Origin: an uncultured Pelagibacteraceae bacterium
Lineage (GTDB): Bacteria; Pseudomonadota; Alphaproteobacteria; Pelagibacterales; Pelagibacteraceae
Reading direction: 5' to 3'
NCBI GenBank assembly: GCA_902579985.1
Contig: CACHIV010000006.1
Location: 1-64,000 of the forward strand
Length of the DNA: 64,000 nt
The position numbers were made by a program, and so were the translations under genes. Positions 8,400-39,234 of the stretch are shown piece after piece (positions within the stretch are counted from its first letter, which is position 1; each line of letters opens with the position of its first letter). Under the pieces are notes generated by a model. The model searched no databases. It was not told the origin of the DNA and saw only the letters and a list, made by a program, of their open reading frames with translations.

Positions 8400-8401
8400 T
8401 A

Positions 8402-11810: not shown

Positions 11811-11843
11811 TCACTTTTACTAAACTATCATTAAATTTAAATT

Positions 11844-11878
11844 CTCTCCTAGTTTTACTAGGGGAGGATTTTTTTTTT
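11844..11878 (+). terminator. Intrinsic terminator after proX
   Basis: A 9-bp stem, CTCTCCTAG pairing with CTAGGGGAG (one T-G wobble), encloses a five-base loop and is followed by ten Ts starting at 11869. It is the best-formed intrinsic terminator in the window and would let proX be expressed at higher level than proV-proW downstream. Confidence 0.85.
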
Positions 11879-11907
11879 AAATTTGATATAATTCACTAAT
11901 TAAAAAA

Positions 11908-12285: not shown

Positions 12286-12799
12286 ACTTAATCAGCTTTC
12301 AGAGAATTTCAAAACCTCAATAGGATTAGTAACTTTAACAATAATTATTTTTTTTATATTTTTTTTACTTAACATATTTTATGGACCAGACAAAAATTCT
12401 GAATTAAAAATTGCTGAACAAAAAAAAGTATTAAAAGAAGCAAATGAATTGATTTCAACTCTGCCTAGAGGAGTTTTGACATTTTATGAATCTACAAAGG
12501 GTCAGAGATTATCTTCAGAGGAATACAAAATAGTTTGCAACAATACAAAAATTATCACTCAAAGAGCTATAATGGGAGCAAATATTACTGATAGTAATGC
12601 ATTTAATTTATATACAGCAAATGGAGGTACTACAGGAAAATATTCTGTGATTTGGGACAAAAGTAAGAATAAATGTTTTGCTAAATTTACTGTTAAACCT
12701 TTAGAGGGATCTTCTAACTCAGTGACTGTTCAAGGTGAAGCCTTAGGTTTTCTAAAAACAAGTATTGATACAAGGGTTTATTTTATTAAAAATTTTTAA
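12263..12799 (+). CDS. Membrane-anchored hypothetical protein
   Basis: I do not recognise this protein of up to 178 residues. It has one N-terminal transmembrane helix (about residues 20-42, GLVTLTIIIFFIFFLLNIF), a short charged coiled region and a beta-rich extracytoplasmic domain with two Cys. It overlaps the MORN gene by 23 bp. An AAGGTG sequence sits just before an in-frame ATG at 12275, which may be the real start and would shorten the protein by four residues. Type II (C-out) topology is likely. It is co-transcribed with the MORN protein. Confidence 0.65.
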   Translation: MKVIMLNKLNQLSENFKTSIGLVTLTIIIFFIFFLLNIFYGPDKNSELKIAEQKKVLKEANELISTLPRGVLTFYESTKGQRLSSEEYKIVCNNTKIITQRAIMGANITDSNAFNLYTANGGTTGKYSVIWDKSKNKCFAKFTVKPLEGSSNSVTVQGEALGFLKTSIDTRVYFIKNF

Positions 12800-12845
12800 T
12801 GGAGTATTTATTAATAATAATAGTATAAATATATAAAATATAAAT

Positions 12846-13886
12846 ATGACTTCTGCACCAGTAATTAAATGTGAATCTGTATATAAAATATTTGGCGCTA
12901 ATGCTAAAAAAATGCTTCAAAATTCAAATGGGAATGTAGATGCAAAAACTTTTCAAGATGCTGGCTGTATTGTAGGAGTAAATAATGCATCTTTTGAGGT
13001 TTCAAAAGGTGAAATGCTTGTAGTAATGGGATTATCTGGCTCTGGCAAATCAACTCTCCTTAGATGCATCTCAAGACTAACTGACGCCACTGGGGGAAAA
13101 ATTTATATTGAAGGTCAGGACTTGTTAGCAATGAATGATAAACAGTTAATAGAATTAAGAAGAAGTAAAATGGGAATGGTTTTTCAGAGCTTCGCATTAC
13201 TTCCTCATAAAACTGTTTTAGAAAATATTGCATTTCCCTTACAAATTAAAGGAAGCGAAACTGATGATAGTATAAAAAAAGCGATGGAAATGGTTGAGTT
13301 GGTTGGTTTAAAAGGAAGAGAAAATTATTTTCCTCGAGAGTTATCTGGTGGTCAACAACAGAGAGTAGGAATAGCTCGTTCTTTAGCTGTTGAACCAGAT
13401 ATATGGTTTTTAGATGAACCTTTTTCTGCTTTAGATCCATTAATTAGAAAAGAAATGCAAGATGAGTTCTTAAGACTTCAAGGGGTATTAAATAAAACAA
13501 TTCTTTTTATTACTCATGATTTTGATGAGGCATTGAGACTCGCAGACCGAATAGCTATTATGAAAGATGGTTTGATTGAACAGTTAGATACGCCTGCAAA
13601 TATAGTTTTAAATCCAAAAACAGAATATGTGAGAAAATTTACTGAAGAAGTTCCTAGAGAAAAAGTATTAAAGATAGAGGCAATAATGGACACTTCTTTA
13701 AATGAAAAAGATAAAAGTAGTATTAGTGTGTCCAAAGATGCAATTATTGAAACAGTAGCAGAAAAAATTTTAAGTCAGGAAAAACCTGCGAATGTTTTAG
13801 ATGCAAATAATAATATTATAGGAAGTGTAAAACCTTCGAAGATAATTCAAACTGTTTTTAGAACTGGAAAAGAGAAATCACAATAA
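12846..13886 (+). CDS. proV: Glycine betaine/proline-type ABC transporter ATP-binding protein
   Basis: This is the cytoplasmic ATPase of the betaine importer, 346 residues. Walker A is GLSGSGKST (about residues 62-70), the Q-loop region is GMVFQSFALLPH, the signature is LSGGQQQR (about 166) and Walker B is IWFLDEPFSALDP (about 186). The switch histidine lies in ITHDFDEAL. The C-terminal 80 residues are short and divergent compared with the paired CBS domains of E. coli ProV (400 residues), so ionic-strength sensing may be reduced. The double permease gene begins four bases after its stop. Confidence 0.93.
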   Translation: MTSAPVIKCESVYKIFGANAKKMLQNSNGNVDAKTFQDAGCIVGVNNASFEVSKGEMLVVMGLSGSGKSTLLRCISRLTDATGGKIYIEGQDLLAMNDKQLIELRRSKMGMVFQSFALLPHKTVLENIAFPLQIKGSETDDSIKKAMEMVELVGLKGRENYFPRELSGGQQQRVGIARSLAVEPDIWFLDEPFSALDPLIRKEMQDEFLRLQGVLNKTILFITHDFDEALRLADRIAIMKDGLIEQLDTPANIVLNPKTEYVRKFTEEVPREKVLKIEAIMDTSLNEKDKSSISVSKDAIIETVAEKILSQEKPANVLDANNNIIGSVKPSKIIQTVFRTGKEKSQ

Positions 13887-13889
13887 TTT

Positions 13890-16013
13890 ATGAAAATAAT
13901 TAATAAATATCCTAAAGTTATACAATGGGCTTTCTTATTAATAGTTTTTTTTGCTTTATGTTTTGCAATTCAAATACCTGAAGGATATGAATTTGCAAAA
14001 GCGGGAACTGAATTTATAGATAAAGATAAATTAGACCAAACTAAATACAGTGTTTTTTGGAGATTGCCTGCTTTTATTGCGTGGATGCCAGGATGGATAA
14101 ATGACTCAGTATATTTTTTATTGAATGAGTGGCTCCCAATTGAATATTTTGATACAAGTATCCAAGAAACAAAATCTCGTCCATTAGTCCTTCATATTAC
14201 TAGATTGATTTCTAGTACTATGCTTTTTTTAATTCAGTTTATTCGTGAAATTTTAATTGGTGGAGTCGAGACAATAGTTGCATTTACAAGTTGGGATTTC
14301 ATTAGTACTTATCCTTGGGCTAAATTACCAGGTCTTCCATGGACAATAGTTGCAGGTGGTGCAATTTTACTAGGACATAAACTTAGTGGAAAAAATCTTG
14401 CAATATTTGCTGCTATAACAATGATTTATATTTCAGCTTTTGGTCAATGGAAACCGTCAATGCAAACTTTATCATTTGTAATGGTGGCGGCTCCAATATC
14501 TTTTATATTGGGACTTGGTTTTGGAATTTGGGCTTATAAAAGTAAAAAAGTTGAAAAAATACTTAACCCTCTTTTGAATGTAGCTCAAACAATGCCTCAT
14601 TATTCTTATTTAGTTCCCATTATGGTTTTATTTGGTATTGGAGATCATGCAGGAGCAATCGCTACTATTATTTTTGCAACGCCTCCTATGGTTAGATTAA
14701 CTTTATTAGGGTTAAGAAAAGTTTCACCAGAAGTGATTGAAGCTGGAAAAATGAGTGGTTGTACTGATTATCAGTTGTTGTCTGAAGTTTTAATTCCGAC
14801 TGCAAGAAGAGATATTCTAATTGGTGTTAATCAGGTGATTATGCAATGTCTAGCAATGGCTGTTATTGCATCATTTATAGGTGCTAAAGGCCTTGGGTGG
14901 AATTTACTTCTTGCTCTTAACCAATTAAGAATTGGTTTAGCTCTTGAGGCTGGGATATGCATCACTTTAATAGCTGTTTTATTAGATAAGTTATCATTAG
15001 CTTGGGCCAATAAACAAAAAAATTATTTTGAAAATCCTACACCGTTTCAAAAAAATAAATATTTTTATATATTTACTGGAGTAGTTGTTGTTGGATATAT
15101 ATTTTCTTATCTAGGCACTTTCTTTTTTAAAGAAGGTTTTAATTATTTTTTTATTGTACCTCATAATAAAGGTATTTCTACAGAAGCTTTCTGGAACGCA
15201 GGTGTTGATTGGATATTAGATAATTTTTTCGACACACTTAAAATTTTTAATACTTGGTTAATAGTAGAGGTATTAATACCAATGAAAAATGCATTTTTAA
15301 GAATGCCTATAATTGCTACTTTTGTTTTGTTTATGGGTGCAGGCTATATAATTGGCGGAATAAGATCTGCATTAGTGGTTGGAAGTTTTACTTTGTTTAT
15401 AGCTTTAACTGAGTGGTGGGATAGAGCTTTGATCACAATGTACATGGCTACTTTTGGTGTTTTAGTCTCTGGAATACTTGGAATTATTATAGGAACTATA
15501 AGCGCTCAAACAAAAACTAGTACAAGAATAACTTTAGGAATTTGTGATACTTTACAAACTTTCCCATCATTTATTTACTTAATTCCAGTCATAATGCTTT
15601 TTGGCGTAACAGATACATCTGTATTAATTGCTGTAGTGATTTATGCAACAATACCAGCAACAAGATACACTATAGAGGGATTAAGAAGTGTGCCATCTGC
15701 GCTACACGATGCAGGTTCTATGTCTGGAGTAAATAGATTACAAAGATGGCTAAAGATAGAATTGCCGCTTGCTTTTCCTCATATGATGTTAGGAATTAAT
15801 CAAACAGTTGTTTTTGCATTATTTATGGTAATTATTGGAGCGATGATTGGAACAACTGATTTAGGCCAGTATATTCTTAAAGCTTTATCAGATAGACAAG
15901 GAACTGGTAATGGATTAATGCTTGGATTATGTGTTGCTTTTATTGGTTTGGCAGTAGATAATTTAATAAGAACTTGGGCAGAGCAACAAAAAAAATTGCT
16001 TGGACAAGATTAA
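13890..16013 (+). CDS. proW: Betaine/TMAO ABC permease with two fused membrane domains
   Basis: This 707-residue inner-membrane protein contains two complete binding-protein-dependent permease domains in tandem. Each carries its own EAA loop: EVIEAGKMSGCTDYQLL near residue 281 and ALHDAGSMSGVNRLQRW near residue 602. A typical ProW is about 350 residues and dimerises, so here one chain probably forms the whole pore. Large tandem permeases of this kind are known in marine betaine/TMAO systems. The long hydrophilic segment between the halves (about residues 385-460) includes partial helices. It is transcribed with proV. Confidence 0.92.
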   Translation: MKIINKYPKVIQWAFLLIVFFALCFAIQIPEGYEFAKAGTEFIDKDKLDQTKYSVFWRLPAFIAWMPGWINDSVYFLLNEWLPIEYFDTSIQETKSRPLVLHITRLISSTMLFLIQFIREILIGGVETIVAFTSWDFISTYPWAKLPGLPWTIVAGGAILLGHKLSGKNLAIFAAITMIYISAFGQWKPSMQTLSFVMVAAPISFILGLGFGIWAYKSKKVEKILNPLLNVAQTMPHYSYLVPIMVLFGIGDHAGAIATIIFATPPMVRLTLLGLRKVSPEVIEAGKMSGCTDYQLLSEVLIPTARRDILIGVNQVIMQCLAMAVIASFIGAKGLGWNLLLALNQLRIGLALEAGICITLIAVLLDKLSLAWANKQKNYFENPTPFQKNKYFYIFTGVVVVGYIFSYLGTFFFKEGFNYFFIVPHNKGISTEAFWNAGVDWILDNFFDTLKIFNTWLIVEVLIPMKNAFLRMPIIATFVLFMGAGYIIGGIRSALVVGSFTLFIALTEWWDRALITMYMATFGVLVSGILGIIIGTISAQTKTSTRITLGICDTLQTFPSFIYLIPVIMLFGVTDTSVLIAVVIYATIPATRYTIEGLRSVPSALHDAGSMSGVNRLQRWLKIELPLAFPHMMLGINQTVVFALFMVIIGAMIGTTDLGQYILKALSDRQGTGNGLMLGLCVAFIGLAVDNLIRTWAEQQKKLLGQD

Positions 16014-19245: not shown

Positions 19246-20478
19246 ATCTAAAGAGCAAATAATAGAACATTTTATTTCAGGCAATAAACCAAACCAATTT
19301 ATTGGTGTAGAGAATGAAAAATTTCTATTAAAAAAAAAAAATAATGAAAGAGCTGAGTACTCAGACTTATTGAAAATTTTTAATTTTTTTACCTCAAAAT
19401 TTAATTGGCAACCAATTAAAGAAGATGAAAATATTATTGGCTTAAGAAAAAATGGGAAAATTATTACTCTAGAGCCAGGAAATCAAATAGAATTATCGGG
19501 TAGTCAATTATCTAATATTCATGAAGTGTGCTCTGAATCATATGAATTTCAAAAAAAATTAAATATAGCATGTGAAAACTTTGATTTAAAAACTTTATCT
19601 GTAGGTTTTGATCCATTTTCGAATATTGATAAAATTCCAAATAATCCAAAAAAAAGATACAAAATAATGACAAAAGAGATGCCTAAAAATGGTTCTTTAA
19701 GCTTAGAAATGATGTATCAAACAGCCGGTACGCAGATAAATATTGATTACAAAATGAGGAAGATTTTAAAAAAAAATTTAAACTTGCATCTTATCTGACT
19801 CCAATAAGCATCGCATTATTTTCAAATTCCGCAATTAAACAAAATAAATTTAGTGGTTATTTGTCTTATCGATCGAAAGTTTGGCAAAACACGTCTAGGG
19901 GAGGATTACCAGAAATTTTTTTAGAAGAAATGTCTTTTGAAAAATATGCAGATTTTGTTTTAAATTATCCATTATTATTTTATCAAAAAAATAATGATTA
20001 TTTATTTCCAGATGGCAAAACATATTACGATTTAATAAAACAGGGTGAAGCTGATAAAAATAATCTTAAATTACATCTATCTACAATTTTTACGGAAGTA
20101 AGATTAAAAAGCTACATTGAAATAAGATCTCTTGATGCATGCGAATGGGACTGTCATTGCGCTGGCCCAGCGTTTTTAATTGGACTCCTTTATGGTAATT
20201 TAAATGAATCATATGAGATTATAAATAAATGGAAAAAAAAAGATATTTTAAAAGCATATTTTGATAGTCCATCAAAAGGTTTTAGTACAGAAATAGATGG
20301 GAAAAGTATTTTGTATTGGTCAGATGTTTTTTCAAAATTATCAAAAGAAGGATTAAAATTTAGAAATCAATTAAACTCAAAAAAAAATAATGAAGCAGTA
20401 TATCTTAAAAATATTGATAACATGATCACTAAGAAAAGCACAAAAGCTGAAGACTCAATTAAAAATCTAAATAAATGA
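19235..20478 (+). pseudogene. gshA: Glutamate-cysteine ligase, reading frame broken by one base
   Basis: This is a plant/alphaproteobacterial-type GshA, the first enzyme of glutathione synthesis. The frame starting at 19235 stops at 19798. The homologous continuation runs in another frame from about 19777 to 20478 without its own start. The switch lies at a run of nine A (19768-19776). Adding one A restores KKKFKLASYLTPISIALFSNS leading into GYLSYRSKVWQNTSRGGLP, the family core, giving a 414-residue protein with normal spacing. Conserved segments on both sides (ENEKFLL, LEPGNQIELSG, EMMYQTAGTQINIDY) look intact, so a recent mutation, assembly error, or slippage-dependent expression are all possible. 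It overlaps the amidotransferase gene and is followed by gshB. Confidence 0.88.
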
Positions 20479-21401
20479 GAAAAATTATAGCAATACAATC
20501 TAATAACTTGAAAACAATTAATCCTTTTACCGATACATCTTTACAATTAGCTATTGAGGCTCAAAAAAGAGGTTTTAAAGTATTTTGGTATGAAGCCAAT
20601 AATTTAAGTATAATAAACTCAAAACTCCAAGCCCAAGGTTCACTAGTATATTTTTACGAAGGTAAAAAAAATTTTTATAAAATAAATAAAAAAATCAAAT
20701 TTGATATTTCAAAAGCTGCTTTTACTTTAATAAGACAAAATCCTCCATTTAATATGAATTATATTAATTCCACATATTTTTTGGATAATATTGATCAAAA
20801 AAAAGTTATTAATAATCCCTCTGCGATAAGGAATGTATCTGAAAAATTTTACTCCTCACGATTTTTAAGATTTATGCCTCCTACTATTTTTACAAATAGT
20901 ATTAACGAGATACATAAACATTATAAAAAACATAAGAAAATTGTCATAAAACCACTAGATGGTTATGCTGGTAAAAATATTATTTTTTTAACAAAAAATT
21001 TTTCAAAATCAAAAGTATCTTTATTTCTTAAAAAATATAATTATTTGATGGTCCAAAAATTTTTAAATAAAGTAAAATTCGGAGATAAGAGAGTATTTAT
21101 TATTAATGGTAAAGTAAAAGGTGCAATTAAAAGAGTTCCTAAGACAGGATCTAATTTGTCAAATATTTCTCAAGGCGGAACAGCGTTTAAAACTGATTTA
21201 AATAAAAAGGAGTTAAAAATTTCTTCATTAATCGGTAAAAGTTTATTAAACGATAAAATTTATTTTGCAGGAATAGATTTAATAGATGGTTATCTCATAG
21301 GAGATATTAATGTTACGTCGCCTACAGGGTTACCTCAGTTTGAATTTCTTACAGGAAAAAATTTAGCAAAAGATTTTTGGAATGGCTTAGGTTTAAAATA
21401 A
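20475..21401 (+). CDS. gshB: Glutathione synthetase
   Basis: This ATP-grasp ligase of 308 residues joins gamma-glutamylcysteine and glycine. The N-terminal [11 protein letters not shown], central [16 protein letters not shown] (ATP loop) and C-terminal [21 protein letters not shown] motifs are those of prokaryotic GshB. The start overlaps the gshA stop by four bases, confirming an operon. Its 3' end overlaps the convergent fhs gene by nine bases. Confidence 0.92.
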
Positions 21402-23081
21402 TCCCTCGATATCACCTTTTTTATTTAATTTTATTTTGTCAGCAGCAGGTACTCTTGGCAAACCGGGCATTGTCATAATTGATCCGCAAATTACAACAAT
21501 AAATTCAGCACCAGATGATAATCTTACCTCTCTAATAGAAATTTCATGGTCTGAAGGGGCACCTTTTAATTTAGGATTTACTGAAAAACTATATTGAGTT
21601 TTGGCTATACATACTGGTAATTTACCATATCCATTGTCTTCAAATATTTTCAACTGTTTTTTTATATTTTCATCTGCAGTTATTGAACTTGCATTATATA
21701 TTTCTTTAGAAATAGTTTCTACTTTGCTCCACAATGATTGATTATCCTCATATAAAAATTTAAAGTCTTTCTTTTTTGAAGCATTACATATCTTAACAAC
21801 TTTTTTAGCTAAATCTTTTGCACCTTTTCCACCATCAGACCAGTGTGTAGACTCACTTACTTCAACTTTTTTATTTTTACAAAAATCTTTTACGGAAGCT
21901 ATTTCTTTTTTTGTATCTAAAATGAAACTATTAATAGCTACAATTGGTATTAATCCAAATTTTTTTATATTACTTATGTGTCTTTCCAAATTTACCAATC
22001 CTTTTTTAAGTGCATCAACGTTTTCGTTTTTTAGATTTTCTTTTTCTACACCTCCATGCATTTTCAATGCTCTTATTGTTGCAACAATAACAACACAACT
22101 TGGTTTTATGTTTGATTTTCTACATTTAATATCTAAAAATTTTTCAGCACCCAAATCTGCACCAAATCCCGCTTCAGTAACAACATAGTCAGCAAGTTTT
22201 AAAGCAGACTTTGTTGCAATTACTGAATTACATCCATGCGCAATATTTGCAAAAGGACCTCCATGGATCAATGCAGGATTATTTTCTAAAGTTTGAGTTA
22301 CATTCGGTCTTATTGCATCTTTTAAAAGAACTGTCATTGGTCCTTGGGCTTTTAGATCTTTTGCATAAACAGGTTTGCCATCGGTATTGTATGCAATTGT
22401 TATGTTTCCAATTCTTTTTTCCAAATCTTTTAAATCATTTGATAAACAAAAAATTGCCATAACCTCTGATGCAACTGTAATATCAAAACCATCTTCTCTA
22501 GGAAATTCCTTTGTAACACCTTTCGTATTTATATTTATGAACCTTAGAGCTCTGTCATTCATATCCATTACTCTTTTCCAAACAATTCTCTTGTCATCTA
22601 TTTTAAGTTTGTTACCCCAATATATGTGATTATCAATTAATGCAGATAGTAAATTATGAGCTGATGTAATTGCATGGAAGTCTCCAGTAAAATGTAAATT
22701 AATTTGTTCCATAGGTACTACTTGAGCATAACCTCCACCAGCAGCTCCTCCTTTCATCCCAAACGACGGCCCTAGACTTGGTTCTCTTAAACATACTATT
22801 GATTTTTTACCAATTTTGTTGAGACCATCGTGCAGCCCAACAGAGGTAGTTGTTTTCCCCTCTCCCGCAGGGGTAGGAGTAATTGCGGTTACTAAAATTA
22901 GATGTCCATCTTTTTTCTTTTTTAATTTATTTAAGTATTCGAGGTTTATTTTGGCAATATGCCTACCCATTGGACTGAAACTGCTATTATTATCTGGAAC
23001 TTTGATTTTGCCTAAAATATCCTTAATAGGCTTCATTTTTGCGGCTCTTGCGATTTCGATGTCTGATTTGACTGCGCCCAT
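21393..23081 (-). CDS. fhs: Formate-tetrahydrofolate ligase
   Basis: This is a 562-residue cytosolic enzyme that interconverts formate plus THF plus ATP and 10-formyl-THF. [19 protein letters not shown] holds the P-loop, [23 protein letters not shown] is the family signature, and [19 protein letters not shown] and [15 protein letters not shown] are also typical. It is divergent from soxBDAG with a 93-bp shared promoter region. This fits disposal of methyl-derived one-carbon units as formate with ATP gain, or their capture for purine synthesis. Confidence 0.95.
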
Positions 23082-23174: not shown

Positions 23175-24431
23175 ATGCAAAAATATTCTTTATTTAATCT
23201 TATTAAAAATGCTCTCTCTAATCATCAGAATTGGGATTTAGCCTGGAAAGATCCAACTCCAAAGAAAGAATATGATGTTATTATTATTGGAGGAGGAGGA
23301 CATGGTTTGGCTACGGCTTACTATTTAGCGAAAGAGCATAATATAACAAATGTAGCAATTATTGAAAAAGGCTGGATCGGAGGAGGAAACGTTGGGAGGA
23401 ATACTACCATTATAAGGTCAAATTACATGCATGATGATAATGCACTTTTTAGCGAATTTGGGATGAATTTATGGAGAAAAATGAGTCAGGATTTAAATTA
23501 TAACGTGATGTTCTCTCCTAGAGGAATTATTAATCTTGCTCATTCTGATGCTCAAATGAATGTTTATGCGAGAAGAGGAAACTCGATGAGATTGAATGGA
23601 ATTGATGCAGTCCTCTTAAACAGAGAAGAGGTAAAAAAAATTATTCCTATGGCAGATTTTTCAGAAAATGTAAGATTTCCTATTTTTGGTGGATTAATGC
23701 AACCAAGTGCTGGAACAGCTAGACATGACGCAGTAGCTTGGGGTTATGCTCGCCAAGCAGACTCTATGGGAGTAGATATTATTCAAAATTGTGAGGTGAT
23801 TGGTTTCGACGTAACAGGTGGAAAAATAAATGGAATAAGAACATCTCGTGGAAATATAAAATCAAAAAAGATTGGATTATGTGTTGCTGGTAGTACAAAT
23901 ATTTTAGCTGAGAAATTAAATATGACATTACCAATTGAAACACATCTTTTGCAAGCGTGTGTTTCAGAACCAGTGAAGCCAGTTTTAGATAAAGTAGTGA
24001 CCTTTGGCGCAGGTCATTTTTATGTAAGTCAATCAGATAAAGGTGAAATGGTTATGGGTGGTGACTTAGATGGATACAATAGTTATGCTCAAAGAGGAAA
24101 CCTGCCTACTTTACAACATGTATTAACAGAAGGAATTGCAATGATGCCTTTCTTAAGCAAACTAAAGATGCTAAGAACCTGGGGCGGGATAATGGATATG
24201 TCAATGGATGGTTCACCTATAATTGACAAAACTCATATTGAAGGTTTGTACTTAAATTGCGGTTGGTGTTATGGAGGATTTAAAGCAACCCCTGCATCAG
24301 GTTGGACTTTTGCCCATACTATTGCTCAAGATAAGGTTCATGAACTAAATGCTGGTTATAGTTTGAATAGATTTAGTAACGGTTACTTGCTTGATGAAAA
24401 AGGACTTGGCACAAAAACTTGGATTTCATAA
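23175..24431 (+). CDS. soxB: Sarcosine oxidase beta subunit-like (or N-methylglutamate dehydrogenase subunit A)
   Basis: This is the FAD/FMN-binding catalytic subunit of a heterotetrameric sarcosine oxidase-type enzyme, 418 residues. The Rossmann motif is DVIIIGGGGHGLATAYYLA (about residues 35-53). WIGGGNVGRNTTIIRSNY contains the segment around the flavin-linking site of SoxB, and NCGWCYGGFKATPASGW is near the C-terminal FAD contact. It oxidises an N-methyl group to a methylene unit passed to THF. First gene of a four-gene operon; the small subunit starts directly after its stop. Confidence 0.92.
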   Translation: MQKYSLFNLIKNALSNHQNWDLAWKDPTPKKEYDVIIIGGGGHGLATAYYLAKEHNITNVAIIEKGWIGGGNVGRNTTIIRSNYMHDDNALFSEFGMNLWRKMSQDLNYNVMFSPRGIINLAHSDAQMNVYARRGNSMRLNGIDAVLLNREEVKKIIPMADFSENVRFPIFGGLMQPSAGTARHDAVAWGYARQADSMGVDIIQNCEVIGFDVTGGKINGIRTSRGNIKSKKIGLCVAGSTNILAEKLNMTLPIETHLLQACVSEPVKPVLDKVVTFGAGHFYVSQSDKGEMVMGGDLDGYNSYAQRGNLPTLQHVLTEGIAMMPFLSKLKMLRTWGGIMDMSMDGSPIIDKTHIEGLYLNCGWCYGGFKATPASGWTFAHTIAQDKVHELNAGYSLNRFSNGYLLDEKGLGTKTWIS

Positions 24432-24704
24432 ATGCTTCATATTAAATGTCCACATTGTGGAATGAGATCACAAAACGAGTTTTCTTATGGAGGAGATGCA
24501 AGCATTAAAAGACCTGAGCTTAATAAAGAAATATCAGATCAAGATTGGGATAATTTTGTTTATAATAGAAAAAGTTTAAGAGGTAAGCATTGGGAGTTAT
24601 GGCAACATTTATCAGGATGTCGTCAATGGATAAAAGTTGAAAGAGATACTTCAACCCATGAAATTTTTAACACACTAAAGGCTAATGAGGATATTTCATC
24701 ATGA
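24432..24704 (+). CDS. soxD: Sarcosine oxidase delta subunit-like, zinc-binding
   Basis: This small structural subunit of 90 residues carries the zinc-site pattern CPHCGMRSQNEFSYGGDA at the N-terminus and GCRQWIKVERDTSTHEI in the second half. It begins on the base after the soxB stop and overlaps soxA by four bases. It stabilises the complex and has no catalytic role of its own. Confidence 0.92.
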   Translation: MLHIKCPHCGMRSQNEFSYGGDASIKRPELNKEISDQDWDNFVYNRKSLRGKHWELWQHLSGCRQWIKVERDTSTHEIFNTLKANEDISS

Positions 24705-27697
24705 GTCAGGGCTTTAGACTGAAAGATGTTGGTTTAATTAATAGAGATAAAAAAATTTCATTTAAGTTTAATGAAAGAATTTACTATGGTTATGAAGGGG
24801 ACACTTTAGCATCTGCCTTAATAGCTAACGGAGTTCATTTAGTTGGTAGAAGCTTTAAATATCACAGACCTAGAGGTTTTTTTGGAGTAGGGGTTGATGA
24901 GCCTTATGCAGTGGTTCAACTGTATAGAAATGGTGAAACAGAGCCAAATATAAAAGCAACAGAACAGGAACTGTTTGAAGGATTAGAGGCAAAAAGTGTT
25001 AATTGTTGGCCAAGTGTGAATTTTGATATTGGTGCAATCAATAATTTTTTAAAAATTTTCTTACCAGCTGGATTTTATTACAAGACATTTATGTGGCCAA
25101 AAAGTTTTTGGTATAGAGTTTATGAACCATTTATAAGAAAAGCTGCCGGACTAGGGGTAGCTTCAATAAAACATGATAAAGAAAGGTACGAGCATAAATA
25201 TGAGTATTGTGATTTACTAATTGCTGGATCTGGACCATCAGGATTAGCCGCTGCTTATACTGCAGCTAAAAATGGAGCTAAAGTTATTTTAGCTGAAGAC
25301 AAACCAAGGTTTGGTGGATCTTTATTAACAAGTGAGGTCAATATCGGAAATCAATCTGGAAAAGATTGGGCCGAAGGGATTATTACTGAACTTAAAGAGA
25401 TGCCAAATGTTATTGTAAAAAATAGGTCTCAAATTTTTGGGTACTATGATCACAATATGCTTGTGATGTCTGAGAAGATAAGTGACCATTTACCAAAAAC
25501 TAAAAAATATCATCCTAATAAAAAACTTTGGTATATCAGAGCAAAAGAAGTTTTAATTTCATCAGGATCAATTGAGAGACCAATAGTTTTTGGAAATAAT
25601 GATACACCAGGTGTGATGCTTTCATCTGCTGCTAAAGAATATTTAAAAGTTTATGGGGTATTAGTTGGAAAAAATCCTTTAGTATTTACAAATAATGATA
25701 GTGGATATGAAACAGCAATTGAATTTAAAAAAAACGGAGTAGATCCAGTAGTTTTAGACTCAAGAAAAAATCCAGAATCGGAAATAATTGATGAGGCAAA
25801 AAATCTAGGAATTAAAATTAGATTTTCACATGTAGTTGTGGCTGCTCAAGGTTATAAAAAAGTAAAATCTGCTGATATTTCAAGTATTTCAGAAGATAAA
25901 AAAAGATTAGGAAAAATAGAAAACATAAAATGTGATTGTATTTGTGTTTCAGGTTTTTGGACTCCGACGATTCATTTGGCTTCTCAATCAGGAAATAAAA
26001 CAAAGTTTAATGAAGATATAGATGCATTTGTGCCTGGAATATCAAAACAAAATGAAACTACTTTGGGTGCTGCTAATGGAGTATTTTCACTTGAAGAAAC
26101 ATTAAAAACTTCTTTTGAAGCTGGTAATGACTTATCTAAAAAAATTACTGAAAAAGAATATAAAGTTTCTGTTCCTAAAGTAGTTGAAAAAAAATCTTCT
26201 CAGCATGATAAGTTTTGGTGTGTACCACTACCTAAAGGAAAAAATTATAAACGATTTTTAGATTTTCAAAACGATGTTGCCGTTTCAGACATAGAGATAG
26301 CTCTAAGAGAAGGTTATCGATCAATTGAACATGTCAAAAGATATACAACACTTGGTATGGCAACAGATCAAGGAAAGACCAGTAATCTTAATGGTTTACA
26401 ATTAGTATCAAATATCGAGAACAAAGTTGTACCAGCTGTAGGCCATACAACTTTTAGACCACCATATACGCCAGTTTCTATTGGAGCAATAGTTGGAAGA
26501 GAAGTTGGTAAACATTCAAAACCAACTAGAAAGTCACCGATGCATTTTTGGCATGAAAAAAATAATGCTGTCTTCGTTGACGCAGGAGTTTGGTTGAGAC
26601 CTAGATATTATAAAAAAGGAAATGAAACTTTGTTTGAGGCTTCTAAGAGAGAGGCTAAAAATGTTAGGACAAATGTTGGAGTTTGTGACGTAACTACATT
26701 AGGAAAAATAGATATTAAAGGTAGGGATGCAGCAGAATTTTTAAACAGAGTATACACGAATGCTTGGCTAAAGTTGCCAATTGGTAAAGCAAGGTATGGT
26801 GTGATGCTTCGAGAGGATGGTATCGTAATGGACGATGGAACTACTACAAGAATTTCTAAAAATCATTATCATATGACCACTACTACTGCTCAAGCAGCGA
26901 ATGTACTTTCTCATTTAGAATATTATTTACAAGTAGTCTGGCCAGAATTGAATGTGAATGTCATTTCGACGACCGAGCAATGGGCTGGTGCGGCAATAGC
27001 TGGACCAAAATCTCGAGATTTATTACAAAAATTATTTCCAAAAAATGATGTATCTAATAAAGGTTTACCTTTTATGGGCTATTTAGATGGAGATTTATTT
27101 GGCATAAAAGCAAGGATTTTTAGAATATCTTTTTCAGGTGAACTTGCTTACGAAGTGAATGTTGAGTCAGATAATGGAATTTTCATGTGGCAAAAAATAA
27201 TGGAAATAGGTAAAGAATTTGAAATTCAACCTTATGGAACTGAGGCTTTATCAACTTTAAGAATTGAAATGGGGCATGTTGCTGGCTCTGAACTAGATGG
27301 CAGAACTATTCCATATGATAATTCTTTAGAAGGATTATTAAGTAAAAAGAAAGATTTCATTGGCAAAAGATCTTTAAGTAAAAATGCATTTGTAGCTGAA
27401 GATAGACAAAAAATTGTAGGAGTAGTGCCAATAGATAAAAAAACGAATATTCCTGAAGGCTCACATTTAGTTAAAGATCCAAATGCTCAATTACCTAATA
27501 TTAAATTAGGCTATATTTCAGCATCTTGTTGGAGTGTAGAGTTTGATAATCCATTTTCATTAGCGATTATAAAAAATGGAAAAAATATGATAGGTCAAAA
27601 ACTATTTGCCATGTCTCCTTTAAAAAATAAAATTATACCAGTCGAAATCGTTTCTTCACATTATGTTGATCCTAATGGTGAAAGAGTAAGATCATGA
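24701..27697 (+). CDS. soxA: Sarcosine oxidase alpha subunit-like (or N-methylglutamate dehydrogenase subunit C)
   Basis: This is a 998-residue multidomain subunit. Residues about 20-110 are a ferredoxin-like domain with YEGDTLASALIANGV and RSFKYHRPRGFFG. A pyridine-nucleotide binding domain begins at LLIAGSGPSGLAAAY (about residue 171). The last about 390 residues are a GcvT-type folate domain (GKARYGVMLREDGIVMDDGT, FSGELAYEVNV, ALSTLRIEMGH) that transfers the methylene group to THF. Full length compared with known SoxA. Sarcosine and N-methylglutamate are both possible substrates. Confidence 0.94.
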   Translation: MSQGFRLKDVGLINRDKKISFKFNERIYYGYEGDTLASALIANGVHLVGRSFKYHRPRGFFGVGVDEPYAVVQLYRNGETEPNIKATEQELFEGLEAKSVNCWPSVNFDIGAINNFLKIFLPAGFYYKTFMWPKSFWYRVYEPFIRKAAGLGVASIKHDKERYEHKYEYCDLLIAGSGPSGLAAAYTAAKNGAKVILAEDKPRFGGSLLTSEVNIGNQSGKDWAEGIITELKEMPNVIVKNRSQIFGYYDHNMLVMSEKISDHLPKTKKYHPNKKLWYIRAKEVLISSGSIERPIVFGNNDTPGVMLSSAAKEYLKVYGVLVGKNPLVFTNNDSGYETAIEFKKNGVDPVVLDSRKNPESEIIDEAKNLGIKIRFSHVVVAAQGYKKVKSADISSISEDKKRLGKIENIKCDCICVSGFWTPTIHLASQSGNKTKFNEDIDAFVPGISKQNETTLGAANGVFSLEETLKTSFEAGNDLSKKITEKEYKVSVPKVVEKKSSQHDKFWCVPLPKGKNYKRFLDFQNDVAVSDIEIALREGYRSIEHVKRYTTLGMATDQGKTSNLNGLQLVSNIENKVVPAVGHTTFRPPYTPVSIGAIVGREVGKHSKPTRKSPMHFWHEKNNAVFVDAGVWLRPRYYKKGNETLFEASKREAKNVRTNVGVCDVTTLGKIDIKGRDAAEFLNRVYTNAWLKLPIGKARYGVMLREDGIVMDDGTTTRISKNHYHMTTTTAQAANVLSHLEYYLQVVWPELNVNVISTTEQWAGAAIAGPKSRDLLQKLFPKNDVSNKGLPFMGYLDGDLFGIKARIFRISFSGELAYEVNVESDNGIFMWQKIMEIGKEFEIQPYGTEALSTLRIEMGHVAGSELDGRTIPYDNSLEGLLSKKKDFIGKRSLSKNAFVAEDRQKIVGVVPIDKKTNIPEGSHLVKDPNAQLPNIKLGYISASCWSVEFDNPFSLAIIKNGKNMIGQKLFAMSPLKNKIIPVEIVSSHYVDPNGERVRS

Positions 27698-28281
27698 CAT
27701 TAATTTCTGCATTAGCTAATATTCATGAAAAGGGTCTTTATGGCGATTATGAGAATAAAAATGAAAAAGATTTATTAAAATTATCTGAAAAGAAAAATTT
27801 ATTAATTGTTCAAATAGTTCAATACAAAAATTCTTCTATACCGATACATAGTTTGAAAATTGATAATTTAAATTTTAAAAATGAAGTTTTAGATGTAAGT
27901 GCTAATCAAGATACACGAATTATTTGGAATTCACCAAAAAATTGGTTTTTAGTTTCTTCGAAAAAAGAACTTTTAAAAAAAGTTTTAAGAAATTTTGATG
28001 AAACAAATTTTGCGATTACAGATATATCACATTCAAGGGCTATTATTGAATTGGAAGGAAAAAATGTTATAGAAGTATTAAAAAAAGGATGTCCATTTAA
28101 CTTTAATGAATTAAAAAAAAATAATTGTTTAAATTCTACTTTTAACGGAATTACTTTAACTGTAGATATGTTAAATGATGATCCTTATAAAGTAAGAGTA
28201 TATACTTTAAGAAGTTTTGGTGAGTCATTATACCATTCAATTTCAGATGCTTGTTTAGAATTTGGTTATAAAAATATTTAA
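27694..28281 (+). CDS. soxG: Sarcosine oxidase gamma subunit-like
   Basis: This 195-residue subunit overlaps soxA by four bases. The segment NSPKNWFLVSSKKELL and the ITDISHSRAIIELEGKNVIEVLKKGCPFN stretch match SoxG, a GcvT-fold fragment that contacts the alpha subunit. It is more divergent than the other three subunits, as is usual. Its stop is three bases from the convergent DMT exporter stop, and there is no room for a dedicated terminator. Confidence 0.87.
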   Translation: MTLISALANIHEKGLYGDYENKNEKDLLKLSEKKNLLIVQIVQYKNSSIPIHSLKIDNLNFKNEVLDVSANQDTRIIWNSPKNWFLVSSKKELLKKVLRNFDETNFAITDISHSRAIIELEGKNVIEVLKKGCPFNFNELKKNNCLNSTFNGITLTVDMLNDDPYKVRVYTLRSFGESLYHSISDACLEFGYKNI

Positions 28282-33802: not shown

Positions 33803-34771
33803 ATGAATTTTAAAATTGATAATTTACAATATTGTAATTGGTCTAGAGAGATTTTTGAGATAAATCAGGAAGCTGGTCTTGATGCCATACATGTTACTAT
33901 TGTTTATCATGAAGATTTTAATGAATTAAAAACTGTATTAGAAAGTTGGGAAAAACATTTTTCAAATAATTCAGACTTAATTTTTCACGGAAAAAGTTTT
34001 AAAGATATTGAAAAAGCAAAATCTGAAAATAAAACAGCAGTTTTTTTTGGTTTTCAAAATTGCTCACCTATAGAAGATAATATAGATCTAGTAGAAAAAG
34101 TTTATAATTTAGGATGTAGATTTATGCAACTGACTTATAATAATCAATCTTTACTAGCAACAGGATGTTATGAAAAAGTAGATAGTGGAGTTACTAATTT
34201 TGGAAAAGAAGTGATTAAAGAAATGAATAGATTAGGCCTTGTAATTGATATGTCACATTCAGCTGAAAAAAGTACAATTGAAGCAATTGAAATAAGTGAA
34301 AAACCCATAGCTATAACACATGCAAATCCGTCTTTTTGGCATCCGGTAAAAAGAAATAAATCTAATAAATTATTAAAAATTTTATCTGATAGTAATGGTA
34401 TGTTGGGACTTTCACTTTACCCACATCACTTAAAAAATGGTACAGATTGTACTTTAGAAAATTTTTGTGAAATGGTAGCAAAGACAGCAGATATTATGGG
34501 AGTTGAAAAAATTGGTATAGGATCTGACCTTTGTTTACTACAACCAGACTCAGTTGTTGAATGGATGCGAAATGGAACTTGGAGTAAAAGTAAAAATTTT
34601 GGAGAAGGATCAAAAAAAAAAGCTGGGTTCCCAAAACAACCTGATTGGTTTTTAGATGCAAGAGGGTTTTCAAATTTAAAAGTAGGATTAAAAAAAGTTG
34701 GCTTCTCTGAAAATGATATAAATGGAATTCTTGGAAATAATTGGTATTATTTTTATAAAAATATAAATTAA
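33803..34771 (+). CDS. Peptidase M19 (membrane dipeptidase)-like protein with altered metal site
   Basis: This is a 322-residue member of the renal dipeptidase fold. The later histidines are present in VIDMSHSAEKS and IAITHANPSF, with GIGSDLCLLQPD near the end. The usual N-terminal HxD zinc motif is missing: the protein starts MNFKIDNLQYCNWSREIFE. The bridging Glu position reads FGFQNCSPIED, apparently Gln. It may therefore bind one metal or act on another substrate, and dipeptidase activity should not be assumed. No signal peptide. Its stop overlaps the start of the next gene (TAATG), so the two are translationally coupled. Confidence 0.82.
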   Translation: MNFKIDNLQYCNWSREIFEINQEAGLDAIHVTIVYHEDFNELKTVLESWEKHFSNNSDLIFHGKSFKDIEKAKSENKTAVFFGFQNCSPIEDNIDLVEKVYNLGCRFMQLTYNNQSLLATGCYEKVDSGVTNFGKEVIKEMNRLGLVIDMSHSAEKSTIEAIEISEKPIAITHANPSFWHPVKRNKSNKLLKILSDSNGMLGLSLYPHHLKNGTDCTLENFCEMVAKTADIMGVEKIGIGSDLCLLQPDSVVEWMRNGTWSKSKNFGEGSKKKAGFPKQPDWFLDARGFSNLKVGLKKVGFSENDINGILGNNWYYFYKNIN

Positions 34772-36423
34772 TGGAAATTCCTTTAAGAAATCCTAATACA
34801 ATAATGAAACTTTCAAGACTGGGATCTTTTCATCAGTCAAAACTTTCATTTTTGAGAAGTTTTTTAAAAGAATTTAAAGATTGGGATTATAAAAGAGATT
34901 TATTTAAATTAAATAAGTATGGATATGGTGTGGCTATTTATTCCTTTACTAAAAAAAAAAGAACTTATTCTTTAATATGTTTTGCGAATGAATTAAATGA
35001 AGATGAAAGATCAGATAGAGTTATCGCAACAAAATGGGATGCAGCCTTTACTCTTTTTGATGGCGTTCCAACAAATCAAGATATTGAAAGATTAAAAAAT
35101 GAAGTTCCTAAACAAGAAGTCGGAAGACTTTCTTATAAAGAATTGACTCTTTCTAGAGCAAATAAGTCTGTGAGAATATTTAATTACGTAGTAGAAAATT
35201 TAAGTAATGGTGTCCAGCCTGATAAAAAATTACTAGAAAGTGTTGGATATTTATATAGAACGACAGCAGTTTATGGATCTGGTAAATTTGGTTTAGCTGA
35301 TAGGTTTAGAATTAAAAATAGAGAGGAAATATATGGACCTTTTAGACTAGAAATGATGTTAGTATATTTAGTTAGACAATTTACTTTTGATCAAGTTAAT
35401 CACGTTGCAAAAAATAAAAACCCAAAAAAAGCCATTAATTTAGATCAAGAAATATGTAGAAGTTTAGGGATTGGAAACTCAACAGGACTTGGAATGGCAC
35501 CATTTATTGTTAACCATCCAACTCTCTTAAATAATTGGATTTATGCAAGAGAAATTTCATTAAAAAAGATAAGAGAAATTAAAAAAGTTTCAATCAAAGA
35601 TAAAAATTTATTTATAAATTGTCTAAAAAAATCAATCAAAAATGTTATATCTTGGAATACAGAAAGTGAATACCAACAAAAAAAAATTAAAAACTTATTA
35701 AGTGATTTAAATAAATTTATTCAGTATCTTGATAATGAATTTGATTTTAATCAAAATTTTGTATTTAATAAAATGTACTTACATTTGGAAAGAAATTTTG
35801 GTGAAGAATGTAATGAATATGTAGTTTCAATGATGATGGAACCATACGACAACATTGTTTCACCTCTAATCAAACAAATGAGTTCGGAAGAAGAAAGATA
35901 TTTTAATATTCCTACTGAAAGAAAAGTTATAGAATTAAGAGAAATTCTTGAGACAAAATATTCAAAAATATTAAGCATTGATTTCACAAAAAATGAAAAT
36001 AATTTTAAATTTTGGTTTATTTCAAAAAATAAAGAAGAACCAAGGTTAGCTAATAGATTTGATGAGACAGGATCTGATTTAGAACAACCTCTAGCAATTG
36101 CTAGAGATATCAAAAAACTTTATGAGTTACTTTGCGTAACTGAAAATGATTTATCTATTGCAAAATTTTTATCACAAAATAATGAATTAAGACATGTAGT
36201 GAGAAGAGCATTTATTGTTGAAAAGTTTCCATATGCTGAGATACAAGACAACACTATAAGTAAGGAAATAATGCCAATTGATATGTTAAGATTAAAGTTA
36301 TCATTTTTTGGAGCTTTAAAATTTGATCCTAGATCAGATAAATGGCTAAGAATATGTATGTTCCAAGGAGCACCGTTGCCAGCAGAGTTAAAAAATTTTG
36401 ATGATTATTGGGTTTATAATTAA
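34771..36423 (+). CDS. Hypothetical 550-residue protein, partner of M19-like and DUF3726 genes
   Basis: I do not recognise a domain. It is predicted soluble, with mixed alpha/beta N-terminal 130 residues (MEIPLRNPNTIMKLSRLGSF, ATKWDAAFTLFDG), a central helical part with conserved-looking motifs RTTAVYGSGKFGLADRF and SLGIGNSTGLGMAPFIVNHP, and a C-terminal domain containing ANRFDETGSDLEQPLAIARD. The Gly-rich and charged motifs suggest a catalytic or nucleotide/substrate-binding site. Its ATG overlaps the M19-like stop codon and DUF3726 follows after five bases, so the three act together. Confidence 0.8.
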   Translation: MEIPLRNPNTIMKLSRLGSFHQSKLSFLRSFLKEFKDWDYKRDLFKLNKYGYGVAIYSFTKKKRTYSLICFANELNEDERSDRVIATKWDAAFTLFDGVPTNQDIERLKNEVPKQEVGRLSYKELTLSRANKSVRIFNYVVENLSNGVQPDKKLLESVGYLYRTTAVYGSGKFGLADRFRIKNREEIYGPFRLEMMLVYLVRQFTFDQVNHVAKNKNPKKAINLDQEICRSLGIGNSTGLGMAPFIVNHPTLLNNWIYAREISLKKIREIKKVSIKDKNLFINCLKKSIKNVISWNTESEYQQKKIKNLLSDLNKFIQYLDNEFDFNQNFVFNKMYLHLERNFGEECNEYVVSMMMEPYDNIVSPLIKQMSSEEERYFNIPTERKVIELREILETKYSKILSIDFTKNENNFKFWFISKNKEEPRLANRFDETGSDLEQPLAIARDIKKLYELLCVTENDLSIAKFLSQNNELRHVVRRAFIVEKFPYAEIQDNTISKEIMPIDMLRLKLSFFGALKFDPRSDKWLRICMFQGAPLPAELKNFDDYWVYN

Positions 36424-36428
36424 ATAAT

Positions 36429-37040
36429 ATGAAATCATTAAGTGAAATAGAAACTGTTTCAAAAAGATCATGCAGAGCCTCTGGTTATTCATGGGGAGTT
36501 GCAGAAGAAGTTGGAAAAAATATAAGATTACTTGAAATTTTTTATTTACCTGGGATTAAAAATTTAAATAGTTTTTTAAAAAAAAGACATGAATTAAAGC
36601 TTAAGGAGATAAGTATGATAAATCGATTTAACGAAGCTAATAATTCTGTATATTGCCCAATTATGTCCGGTGTAAGTTTTATTGATCAAATTAAAACTTT
36701 GGAGAACTTAGTTGAAGTAAATTTTCAAAATATGTCTTTTCCATTACTTTTTTTACCTTTTGTTAGTAGAGCTTCAGAGGTAATTGGAAAAAGGATTTTT
36801 TTAAAGATAGACGAGATTGAATTTTTAATGAATTTTAATAACAATATATATTCTAATTATGATAAAAAAAAAGTTATTGAGCTATCAAAAAATATTTATC
36901 TAAAAATTTTGGATAATAGAGACTCTTTTAGCGAAATTGAATGGAAAGAACTCTATAAACTTTCGGAAAAAACTTTTGTTGAGGAAAATGAAGATTTAAA
37001 ATTAAGCAGCGCTGGTGCTGGCTTAACAGATAATGATTAA
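36429..37040 (+). CDS. DUF3726 family protein
   Basis: This 203-residue protein starts SLSEIETVSKRSCRASGYSWGVAEEVGKN, the family's signature, in which a helix-rich region is followed by a Trp-Gly-x-Ala-Glu-Glu motif. The function of DUF3726 is not established. It lies five bases after the 550-residue protein and overlaps the AsmA-like gene by eight bases. Cys residues at CRAS and YCPIMSGVSF might matter. Cytosolic from the lack of signal or helix. Confidence 0.75.
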   Translation: MKSLSEIETVSKRSCRASGYSWGVAEEVGKNIRLLEIFYLPGIKNLNSFLKKRHELKLKEISMINRFNEANNSVYCPIMSGVSFIDQIKTLENLVEVNFQNMSFPLLFLPFVSRASEVIGKRIFLKIDEIEFLMNFNNNIYSNYDKKKVIELSKNIYLKILDNRDSFSEIEWKELYKLSEKTFVEENEDLKLSSAGAGLTDND

Positions 37041-39234
37041 ATTATTAAATAAAATTTTTTTTACACTTTTTTTAATTATAGTTTTTGCAATTATCTATTT
37101 AAGTGTTTTTGGTATAAAAACTAAAAAATTTAATAATGAAATTACTAGCAATATTCAAAAAATTAATAACAAAATTGAACTATCTTTAAATGATGTAAAT
37201 TATCAATTAAATCCTTTTAAATTTAAAATAAATATAATAACTAAAAATCCAAAAATATTATTAGCTGAAAGTAGGTTAGAAATTAGAAGAGTTGAAACAA
37301 CTATACCCTTAAAATCATTAATTAGAAGAAAATTTTCAATTGATAATTTAAAAATTTTAACTAAAGAAATTAAAATAAAGGATGCAATTTCATTAGCAAG
37401 AACATTTCAAAATTCTCCTGAACTTTTTGTGCTAGATAAGGTTATAAAAAAGGGAATTTTATCAGCTGATATTAATGTAAATTTTGACTCAGAAAATAAA
37501 ATTAAGAACAATTATATTATTAAAGGCTTTGTTAAAAAAGGAAATCTTGGATTTGTTAAAAAATATGAATTTAAAGATTTAGATTTTGAATTTAATATAA
37601 CTAATAATCAATATTTATTTAGTGAGATAGAAAGTGATTTGAATAGTATAAAATTAATTTCACCATCAATTAAGATTAATAAAAAGAATGATTTATTTTA
37701 TATTAATGGAAGTATATTAAACGATAACAGAAACTTTGATGTTCAAAATTTTAAAAAATTAGGTGGAATTTTTTTATCAAATGTTGATTTAAAAAAAATT
37801 ATATTTAGTTCCAAAAATGATTTTTCTTTTAATATTAGTAAAAAATTTAAAATTAAAGATCTCAAAATAAATTCAATTATTGATTTAAATGAGCTAGATA
37901 TTAATGAAAACTCTTTTAATTTAAAATCTTATTTGCCAAATTCTAGTGAAATAATAAAATTAGAAAATCATAAAATTAAGATTAGTTTTACTAAGAATAT
38001 ATTAGATATTACGGGTGATGGAAATTTTCTTCTTAAAGATAAGACAGATTTTTTAACTTACAAAATTATTAAAAAAGACAATCAGATTTTATTTGATACA
38101 AAAATAGATATTAAAAATAATAAATTAAATATTAATTTTTTAGATTATGAAATAAAAGAAGGGACAGAGTCAAATATTTCAATAAAGGGAATTAGAAAAA
38201 AAAATAAAGATATATTATTTAAATCAATTTCTTTAAATGAGAATAAAAACAAGATTTTGATAAAAAATTTATTTTTTAATAAAGATTTTAAAATTATTAA
38301 TTTAGCTTCTTTTGAAGCTAATTATACGAATGATAAGAATATTTTTAATCAATTTAAATTAAAAAGAAATAATTCTAAATATACTCTTCGAGGAAATACT
38401 TTTGATGCTACAGAATTAATAAATATCATTATGGATTCAAAAGAATCAAATATGTCAATTTTTAAAGATTTTAATCCTACCATAGATATTAATTTTAAAA
38501 AAACTTATATAGATAATGTGAACTATATTAATAATCTTTCAGGTTATTTAACTTTTAAAAACGATAAAATTAATAAATTAAATTTGATATCGACTTTTCC
38601 TAATAATAAAAAAATTAATTTATCTATTGTGACTAATAGCAAAAATGAAACAACAACCAAATTATTTGCTGATTATCCAAAACCTTTAGTTGAACGATAT
38701 GATTTTATTAAAGGGTTTGACGAGGGTAGTTTGGATTTTTACTCTTATAAAAAGAAAGATAAGTCAAATTCTGTATTAATAATCAATAATTTTAAAGTTA
38801 AGGAAGTTCCAGTTTTAGCAAAACTTCTAAGTTTAGCTTCCCTTCAAGGAATAGCAGATCTTTTAACTGGAGAAGGTATCAGATTTACAGATTTTGAGAT
38901 GAATTTTTCAAATGAAAAAAATCTTATTACAATTGAAGAAATTTATGCGATTGGACCTGCTGTTTCAATATTAATGAGTGGATATATTGAAAAAGAAAAA
39001 ATTATTAGCTTGAGAGGAACATTAGTACCTGCGACAACTATAAATAAAACTATTGCATCAATACCTTTATTAGGAAAAATTTTAGTTGGAGAAAAAGCTG
39101 GTGAAGGTGTTTTTGGTGTTAGTTTTAAAATAAAAGGACCACCAAAAAATTTAAAGACAACAGTAAATCCTATCAAAACATTAGCACCAAGATTTATTAC
39201 TAGAACTTTAGAAAAAATAAAAAAAACTAATTAA
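37033..39234 (+). CDS. AsmA/YhdP-like envelope protein
   Basis: This 733-residue protein has one N-terminal membrane helix (residues 7-27, FFTLFLIIVFAIIYLSVF) and a long, Lys/Asn-rich, beta-strand-dominated periplasmic region, as in AsmA-like lipid-transport bridges. The C-terminal 130 residues are conserved (LLTGEGIRFTDFEMNFS, IGPAVSILMSGYIE, TINKTIASIPLLGKILVGE, GVFGVSFKIKGPP), typical of YhdP/DUF3971 proteins. The usual role is phospholipid movement to the outer membrane. It overlaps DUF3726 by eight bases; this may be coincidence of operon packing. Confidence 0.8.
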   Translation: MIKLLNKIFFTLFLIIVFAIIYLSVFGIKTKKFNNEITSNIQKINNKIELSLNDVNYQLNPFKFKINIITKNPKILLAESRLEIRRVETTIPLKSLIRRKFSIDNLKILTKEIKIKDAISLARTFQNSPELFVLDKVIKKGILSADINVNFDSENKIKNNYIIKGFVKKGNLGFVKKYEFKDLDFEFNITNNQYLFSEIESDLNSIKLISPSIKINKKNDLFYINGSILNDNRNFDVQNFKKLGGIFLSNVDLKKIIFSSKNDFSFNISKKFKIKDLKINSIIDLNELDINENSFNLKSYLPNSSEIIKLENHKIKISFTKNILDITGDGNFLLKDKTDFLTYKIIKKDNQILFDTKIDIKNNKLNINFLDYEIKEGTESNISIKGIRKKNKDILFKSISLNENKNKILIKNLFFNKDFKIINLASFEANYTNDKNIFNQFKLKRNNSKYTLRGNTFDATELINIIMDSKESNMSIFKDFNPTIDINFKKTYIDNVNYINNLSGYLTFKNDKINKLNLISTFPNNKKINLSIVTNSKNETTTKLFADYPKPLVERYDFIKGFDEGSLDFYSYKKKDKSNSVLIINNFKVKEVPVLAKLLSLASLQGIADLLTGEGIRFTDFEMNFSNEKNLITIEEIYAIGPAVSILMSGYIEKEKIISLRGTLVPATTINKTIASIPLLGKILVGEKAGEGVFGVSFKIKGPPKNLKTTVNPIKTLAPRFITRTLEKIKKTN

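Follow-up and report, generated by a model that had tools for sequence, protein, structure and literature searches.

Few cells on Earth are as abundant as SAR11 bacteria. A catabolic pathway for homarine (N-methylpicolinate) has been published by Ferrer-Gonzalez et al. (2026, Nat Microbiol 11:1531); its operon is reportedly called homABCDER, reaches into SAR11 and leads to N-methylglutamate. According to two further sources, R. pomeroyi quickly removes homarine from diatom medium (PMC12817926), N-methylglutamate dehydrogenase (Mgd) has a part in homarine catabolism and the R. pomeroyi mgdABCD genes are adjoined by the AraC-type gene tmaR (PMC13390433). The homarine passages of these sources, and those of PMC9723723 and PMC9038784, do not name degradation genes.

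Here we describe three head-to-tail genes, at positions 33803-37040 of a 64,000-nucleotide stretch (the window, contig CACHIV010000006.1 of assembly GCA_902579985.1) from an uncultured Pelagibacteraceae bacterium, a member of the SAR11 group with a genome of 1.16 Mb that is 95.3% complete. These genes encode an M19-like protein, a 550-residue protein that we call P550 and a DUF3726 protein. We found that they form a conserved unit, and we favour, with some confidence, the reading that this unit stands at the centre of a catabolic operon whose substrate is an N-methylated nitrogen heterocycle, homarine being the likeliest one. This reading provides a testable role for a gene set from the abundant SAR11 bacteria. 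The genes and their immediate downstream neighbour are as follows, with the basis of each description in brackets (ORF, open reading frame):

33803-34771, + strand: M19-like amidohydrolase, 322 residues, HxD motif absent, Gln for the bridging Glu (ORF, Pfam, alignment)
34771-36423, + strand: P550, 550 residues, outside known families (ORF, Pfam and PDB searches, alignment of 28 sequences)
36429-37040, + strand: DUF3726 protein, 203 residues, predicted truncated Ldh_2-type fold, SHG motif absent (Pfam, alignment, model, structure search)
37033-39234, + strand: AsmA-like gene overlapping the DUF3726 gene, not a member of the unit (downstream position in 1/77 loci)

A conserved three-gene unit

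A preliminary description of this locus, made from the letters of the window, had proposed that the three genes are translationally coupled, and the ORFs indeed match it: the M19-like and P550 genes overlap in a TAATG junction and five bases separate P550 from DUF3726. The same description had them followed by an overlapping AsmA-like gene. This overlap exists in the window, but the gene is found directly 3' of DUF3726 in only one of the 77 Pelagibacter loci with sufficient downstream sequence, and we therefore rejected it as a fourth member of the unit and consider it a chance neighbour.

Searching 288 alphaproteobacterial genomes, we detected P550 in 42 of them, one match being marginal (G211, E 8.8e-4 over 101 residues). 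DUF3726 was found in 34 genomes (one of these matches falling under the curated cut-off), all of them among the 42 that hold P550, and in every one of the 34 the two genes adjoin on the same strand, with gaps of 14-494 bases between the matched stretches. The other eight P550 genomes gave no DUF3726 match, although in one of them (G270) the gene next to P550 matches below the cut-off. M19 proteins were searched at E 1e-60, which returned 53 genomes, and were counted only at 400 bits or more, which left 41 places in 40 genomes, the next match scoring 357 bits. Among these places, 35 lie on the same strand as P550 and within 2 kb of it; at one, P550 is on the other strand at a distance of 87 bases, and the contigs of the remaining five carry no P550. 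Such an M19 occurs without P550 in a single genome (G273) and is missing from three of the 42 genomes with P550. Among 41 close relatives, P550 and this M19 share exactly the same 26 genomes. The genes also remain together in a wider set of P550 relatives: at the best 80 of 573 loci, all titled Pelagibacter, Pelagibacteraceae or Pelagibacterales, tblastn found DUF3726 in 80 and M19 in 79.

Fisher tests gave p values of 6e-37 for P550 with DUF3726, 2e-43 for P550 with M19 and 1e-17 for P550 with SoxD, a subunit of the sarcosine-oxidase-type tetramers considered below; these tests draw on related genomes, so that the draws are not independent, and with this reservation they rule out chance clustering of the unit genes. 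Moreover, P550 and DUF3726 are naturally fused into one 814-residue frame in Mesorhizobium sp. 131-2-1 (L186:8956-11400). Beyond SAR11, relatives of the unit are named in Roseobacteraceae, rhizobia and a Pseudomonas, and P550 was detected in 168 of 72,556 plasmid records, including those of Pseudomonas and of the haloarchaeon Natrinema. Altogether, M19, P550 and DUF3726 make up a conserved unit, and the co-occurrence that the preliminary description had proposed as a check extends well beyond close relatives.

One genome of the same family as that of the window (G128, one contig, listed as 100% complete) gave no match to any of P550, DUF3726, the M19 subfamily and SoxD, so that the complete set is naturally absent there.

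The M19-like, P550 and DUF3726 proteins

The M19-like protein clearly matches PF01244 in Pfam (E 4.6e-67, 226.9 bits, cut-off 26), in an alignment that begins at profile position 39 and leaves the N-terminal motif stretch unmatched. It is homologous over the barrel to the renal dipeptidases (1itq, 3id7), with which it shares the second-site His pair and Asp, and from which the M19s of the unit differ by the absence of HxD. We aligned 23 M19s of the unit (six of nine extra loci yielded no usable ORF) with three canonical alphaproteobacterial M19s, two from genomes that also hold the unit (L213, L230) and one from a genome without it (L214). HxD is absent from all 23, where the canonical proteins read H-N-D, H-A-D and H-I-D, and Gln stands in all 23 at the bridging position that is Glu in the three canonical proteins. 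Second-site residues H152 and H173, plus D242 (window numbering), are retained throughout, as are the further polar residues H30, E37, Q85, N86, N175 and H209, while H36 is found in 22 of the 23. The motif losses and the later histidines that the preliminary description had read by eye in one protein thus characterize the whole set. The metal site is thus altered and degenerate, in a subfamily that is strongly constrained and has not decayed.

The nearest solved structure to the M19-like protein is 2i5g (193 bits). Like the M19s of the unit, it lacks HxD, reads FQN at the bridging position and has E37; it differs from them in having N and W in place of H30 and H36. We take this protein to be PA5396, presumably encoded beside the Pseudomonas dimethylglycine genes; a literature search for PA5396 found nothing.

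P550 has no such relative. In Pfam, none of 23 members matched a family above its cut-off, the best value (E 0.046) coming from a single member, a profile search of the PDB returned no relative (best E 0.099), and a pattern scan of viral contigs gave no confirmed one. Its AlphaFold model, built from a shallow input of Pelagibacter sequences only, is poor (predicted local distance difference test, pLDDT, of 59.4), and Foldseek found nothing usable with it. Across 28 P550 sequences, the invariant residues include 12 Arg, 12 Gly and one His (H249), and no Cys, and 39 positions stay invariant once the archaeal and S. meliloti members are added.

The preliminary description had recognized no domain in P550 and no established function for DUF3726. 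The first part holds in Pfam and the PDB; for DUF3726, our analyses predict an Ldh_2-type fold. The DUF3726 protein of the window matches its Pfam family with E 6.3e-24, and its AlphaFold model is of good quality (pLDDT 86.3, predicted template-modelling score 0.78). Using this model, the 15 best VIA entries were all of the Ldh_2 family (Z 8.7-10.4, root-mean-square deviation 3.4-8.4), with the next row at Z 4.3; one of the 15, 3uoe, has a title that reads just dehydrogenase, and we take it to belong to this family. Foldseek likewise placed the Ldh_2 family in its 19 best rows, with a best E of 3.4e-3 and none under 0.001. In the Natrinema plasmid, the protein that occupies the DUF3726 position matches Ldh_2 itself (PF02615) in collinear register, with E 4.8e-9 and 36.2 bits (cut-off 38.8), and two other proteins match it weakly (E 0.093 and 0.046). 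A profile comparison of 24 DUF3726 with 13 Ldh_2 sequences gave E 1.4e-4 and a probability of 52.6% over 59 N-terminal columns, a second one a probability of 16% over 131 columns, and unrelated control profiles E values of 0.7 and 0.45. It is mainly the Natrinema match and the VIA structural matches that argue for the kinship.

The Ldh_2 family comprises malate, lactate and ureidoglycolate dehydrogenases and delta1-piperideine-2-carboxylate reductase, thus also imine reductases, and SHG is its catalytic His motif. These residues (S45-H46-G47) are invariant in the 13 Ldh_2 proteins of the operons, whereas the 24 DUF3726 proteins have no invariant His at all and, with about 200 residues against about 330, are shorter by about 130. 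Since it lacks SHG and is so much shorter, DUF3726 is probably no active dehydrogenase. We therefore assign to DUF3726 a degenerate, truncated Ldh_2-type fold without the SHG motif, a newly recognized kinship that gives this family of proteins a home; a literature search for DUF3726 found nothing. Its C-terminal tail, GAGLTDND, is conserved and yet the model has low confidence for the last ten residues, so that this tail may contact a partner protein.

Gene neighbourhoods and a possible route from homarine

Other genes recur around the unit in other lineages. A single aldehyde dehydrogenase (ALDH) family recurs in 13 of 36 stretches, a single Ldh_2 family in 12 of them and a single LysR family in five. 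One locus (L165) reads OpuAC-permease-ATPase-ALDH-M19-P550-DUF3726, and the best matches of its ALDH are 2,5-dioxovalerate and alpha-ketoglutaric-semialdehyde dehydrogenases, which are C5-semialdehyde enzymes, at scores under their cut-offs. LysR, ALDH, M19, P550 and DUF3726 occur together in five of seven plasmid regions (Phaeobacter, Ruegeria TM1040, Mesorhizobium, Pseudomonas and Aminobacter), three of which also have Ldh. On the Natrinema versiforme plasmid (L187:8091-10621), P550 is followed by the Ldh_2-like protein, with ALDH and BCCT genes nearby and no M19 or LysR annotated within the stretch shown. In TM1040, a sarcosine-oxidase-type tetramer in the order B-D-A-G and an AraC-type regulator stand directly before LysR and the operon.

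The window holds a tetramer of the same type, together with two other sets of genes that matter here:

23175-28281, + strand: four-subunit sarcosine-oxidase-type enzyme, with B at 23175-24431, D at 24432-24704, A at 24701-27697 and G at 27694-28281 (family matches, trees)
21393-23081, - strand: formate-tetrahydrofolate ligase, divergent from the tetramer (family match)
10779-16013, + strand: OpuAC/ProV/ProW-type quaternary-amine ATP-binding cassette (ABC) transporter genes (family matches)

The tetramer is 5.5 kb from the M19 gene. In midpoint-rooted trees of SoxB and SoxA from hand-chosen tetramers, two clades were obtained: the window copy groups with tetramers linked to the unit, and the second SAR11 copy falls in the other clade, none of whose 10 rows is within 30 kb of the unit. 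Eight of the 13 distinct rows of the window clade are the window copy, three other SAR11 copies, that of TM1040 and those of G099, G091 and G184, the last three being on the contig of the unit or of its M19. Tetramers are thus linked to the unit in TM1040, SAR11 and others, and SoxD occurs in 41 of the 42 genomes with P550 and in 75 of the 246 that lack it. We regard the window tetramer as a candidate N-methylglutamate dehydrogenase, N-methylglutamate being its putative substrate. At all four SAR11 copies inspected (the window, L194, L196 and L212), the ligase gene points away from the tetramer genes; its product might be a formate sink. The OpuAC/ProV/ProW genes may be the uptake system; they could equally serve trimethylamine N-oxide (TMAO).

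A route from homarine to glutamate fits the combination of betaine-type transporters with an Ldh_2 enzyme, a C5-semialdehyde dehydrogenase, a C-N hydrolase and an enzyme that demethylates N-methylglutamate. Homarine, a zwitterionic N-methyl ring compound made by algae, would be imported by betaine-type transporters, and the intact Ldh_2 would partly reduce its pyridinium ring. From the fusion in Mesorhizobium, we infer that P550 and DUF3726 are one enzyme acting on the ring, and the missing chemistry, a ring opening with loss of one carbon, would be allotted to this pair, yielding an N-formyl-N-methyl C5 semialdehyde. ALDH would oxidise the aldehyde, and the M19 protein, a C-N hydrolase whose metal site has changed, would then take off the N-formyl group, releasing formate and leaving N-methylglutamate. 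In the last reactions, the tetramer would demethylate N-methylglutamate to glutamate and the ligase would take up the formate. Both the sequence of steps and the substrates given to the proteins are hypothetical, and we hold this exact assignment to be less likely than not. An even bolder version, in which P550-DUF3726 would be a new class of two-part N-methylpyridinium ring-opening enzyme, made of a catalytic subunit of undescribed fold and a catalytically dead, truncated Ldh_2 partner, is likewise conceivable but doubtful. In this version, the single invariant His and the lack of an invariant Cys would set the enzyme apart from classical non-haem iron and Fe-S enzymes, and it would work with a deformylase derived from M19 whose site holds one metal or none. 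If the homarine route is true, the question of ring opening narrows to P550-DUF3726 and the altered M19.

Several observations weigh against this route. In the window genome, the best matches to the ALDH (32-34% identity), Ldh_2 (28%) and OpuAC protein (23-31%) of the operon are too distant to be clear orthologs. The cofactor, fold and activity of P550 stay unassigned after the Pfam, PDB, AlphaFold and Foldseek searches. SoxD cannot separate Mgd from sarcosine oxidase. Five of the 13 tetramers in the window clade are far from P550 (about 26 kb in G060) or on other contigs, and the formate-tetrahydrofolate ligase also adjoins a tetramer copy of the other clade (L199; G184). Identity with the 2026 homarine genes is at most suggested by context. 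At most one SoxD copy was found in 10 of the 11 sister-family genomes with P550 (all but G038; G025 is listed as 100% complete), so that a second tetramer is not obligatory. Finally, the type of transporter near the unit is not constant across lineages: ProXWV, BCCT, polyamine and branched-chain types all occur.

The last two points would also suit a different hypothesis, namely that the unit degrades another N-methylated or quaternary compound, such as proline betaine, hydroxyproline betaine or trigonelline, and that paralogous versions handle further substrates. On S. meliloti pSymB (L188:7716-17659), there is indeed a paralogous trio of P550-like, DUF3726-like and M19-like genes, with P550 25% and M19 39% identical, accompanied by genes whose ORFs, in an unannotated stretch, look by eye like those of a polyamine-type ABC transporter, an aminotransferase and an ALDH. 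This trio probably serves another substrate; a literature search for a trigonelline link of this paralog found nothing. For the close group, however, the partners of the unit (C5-semialdehyde ALDH, Ldh_2 and an Mgd-like tetramer) fit a route to N-methylglutamate, and we give the other-compound hypothesis roughly one chance in four.

That the three genes instead form an enzyme-maturation or cofactor system, with a degenerate M19 and a degenerate Ldh_2 as scaffolds for P550, would account for the loss of canonical catalytic motifs from both proteins; we find it unlikely, since so many polar residues are invariant in the 23 M19s, unlike in a decaying scaffold, and since the unit travels with catabolic genes. 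A diverged dipeptidase operon, whose M19 would still cleave dipeptides through an alternative metal site, is very improbable: the M19 homology is clear, the second-site histidines are retained and an ABC set with two ATPases a few genes upstream of the Phaeobacter operon could be a peptide importer, but HxD and the bridging Glu are lost in all 23 proteins, the constant partners are not peptidases and the identified transporters are mostly of betaine or amine types. Annotated plasmid records label the gene set "membrane dipeptidase / hypothetical protein / DUF3726", and we predict that the dipeptidase label is wrong.

Other genes of the window were noted in passing. Positions 4781-16013 form a methylated-amine region with a glutamine-synthetase-like gene (4781-6250), a TMAO demethylase (8402-10741; NF053776, 1116.5 bits, cut-off 1100) and the OpuAC/ProV/ProW-type transporter genes listed above. 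At 19861-20478, adjoining a glutathione synthetase gene, a 205-residue protein has a match to glutamate-cysteine ligase GCS2 that is confined to the C-terminal part of the latter (172-277 of 291), and it is possibly the product of a short or split gene.

Comparison with the homarine and Mgd systems

The preliminary description had concluded that this is an undescribed enzyme system and not a dipeptidase operon. Loss of the metal ligands sets the dipeptidase reading aside, but "undescribed" probably goes too far, given a context that points to the 2026 homarine pathway, which is cited in PMC13390433. The unit is thus probably the genetic basis of an already reported pathway, with enzyme parts whose chemistry we found in none of the sources read. 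Five enzymes and a LysR regulator would match the operon name homABCDER. The R. pomeroyi genes mgdABCD with tmaR (PMC13390433) resemble in their arrangement what we found at the TM1040 operon, a tetramer beside an AraC-type regulator. The homarine pathway and our unit may also meet in the N-methylglutamate dehydrogenase step: this enzyme has a reported role in the former, and the candidate for it adjoins the unit in several lineages.

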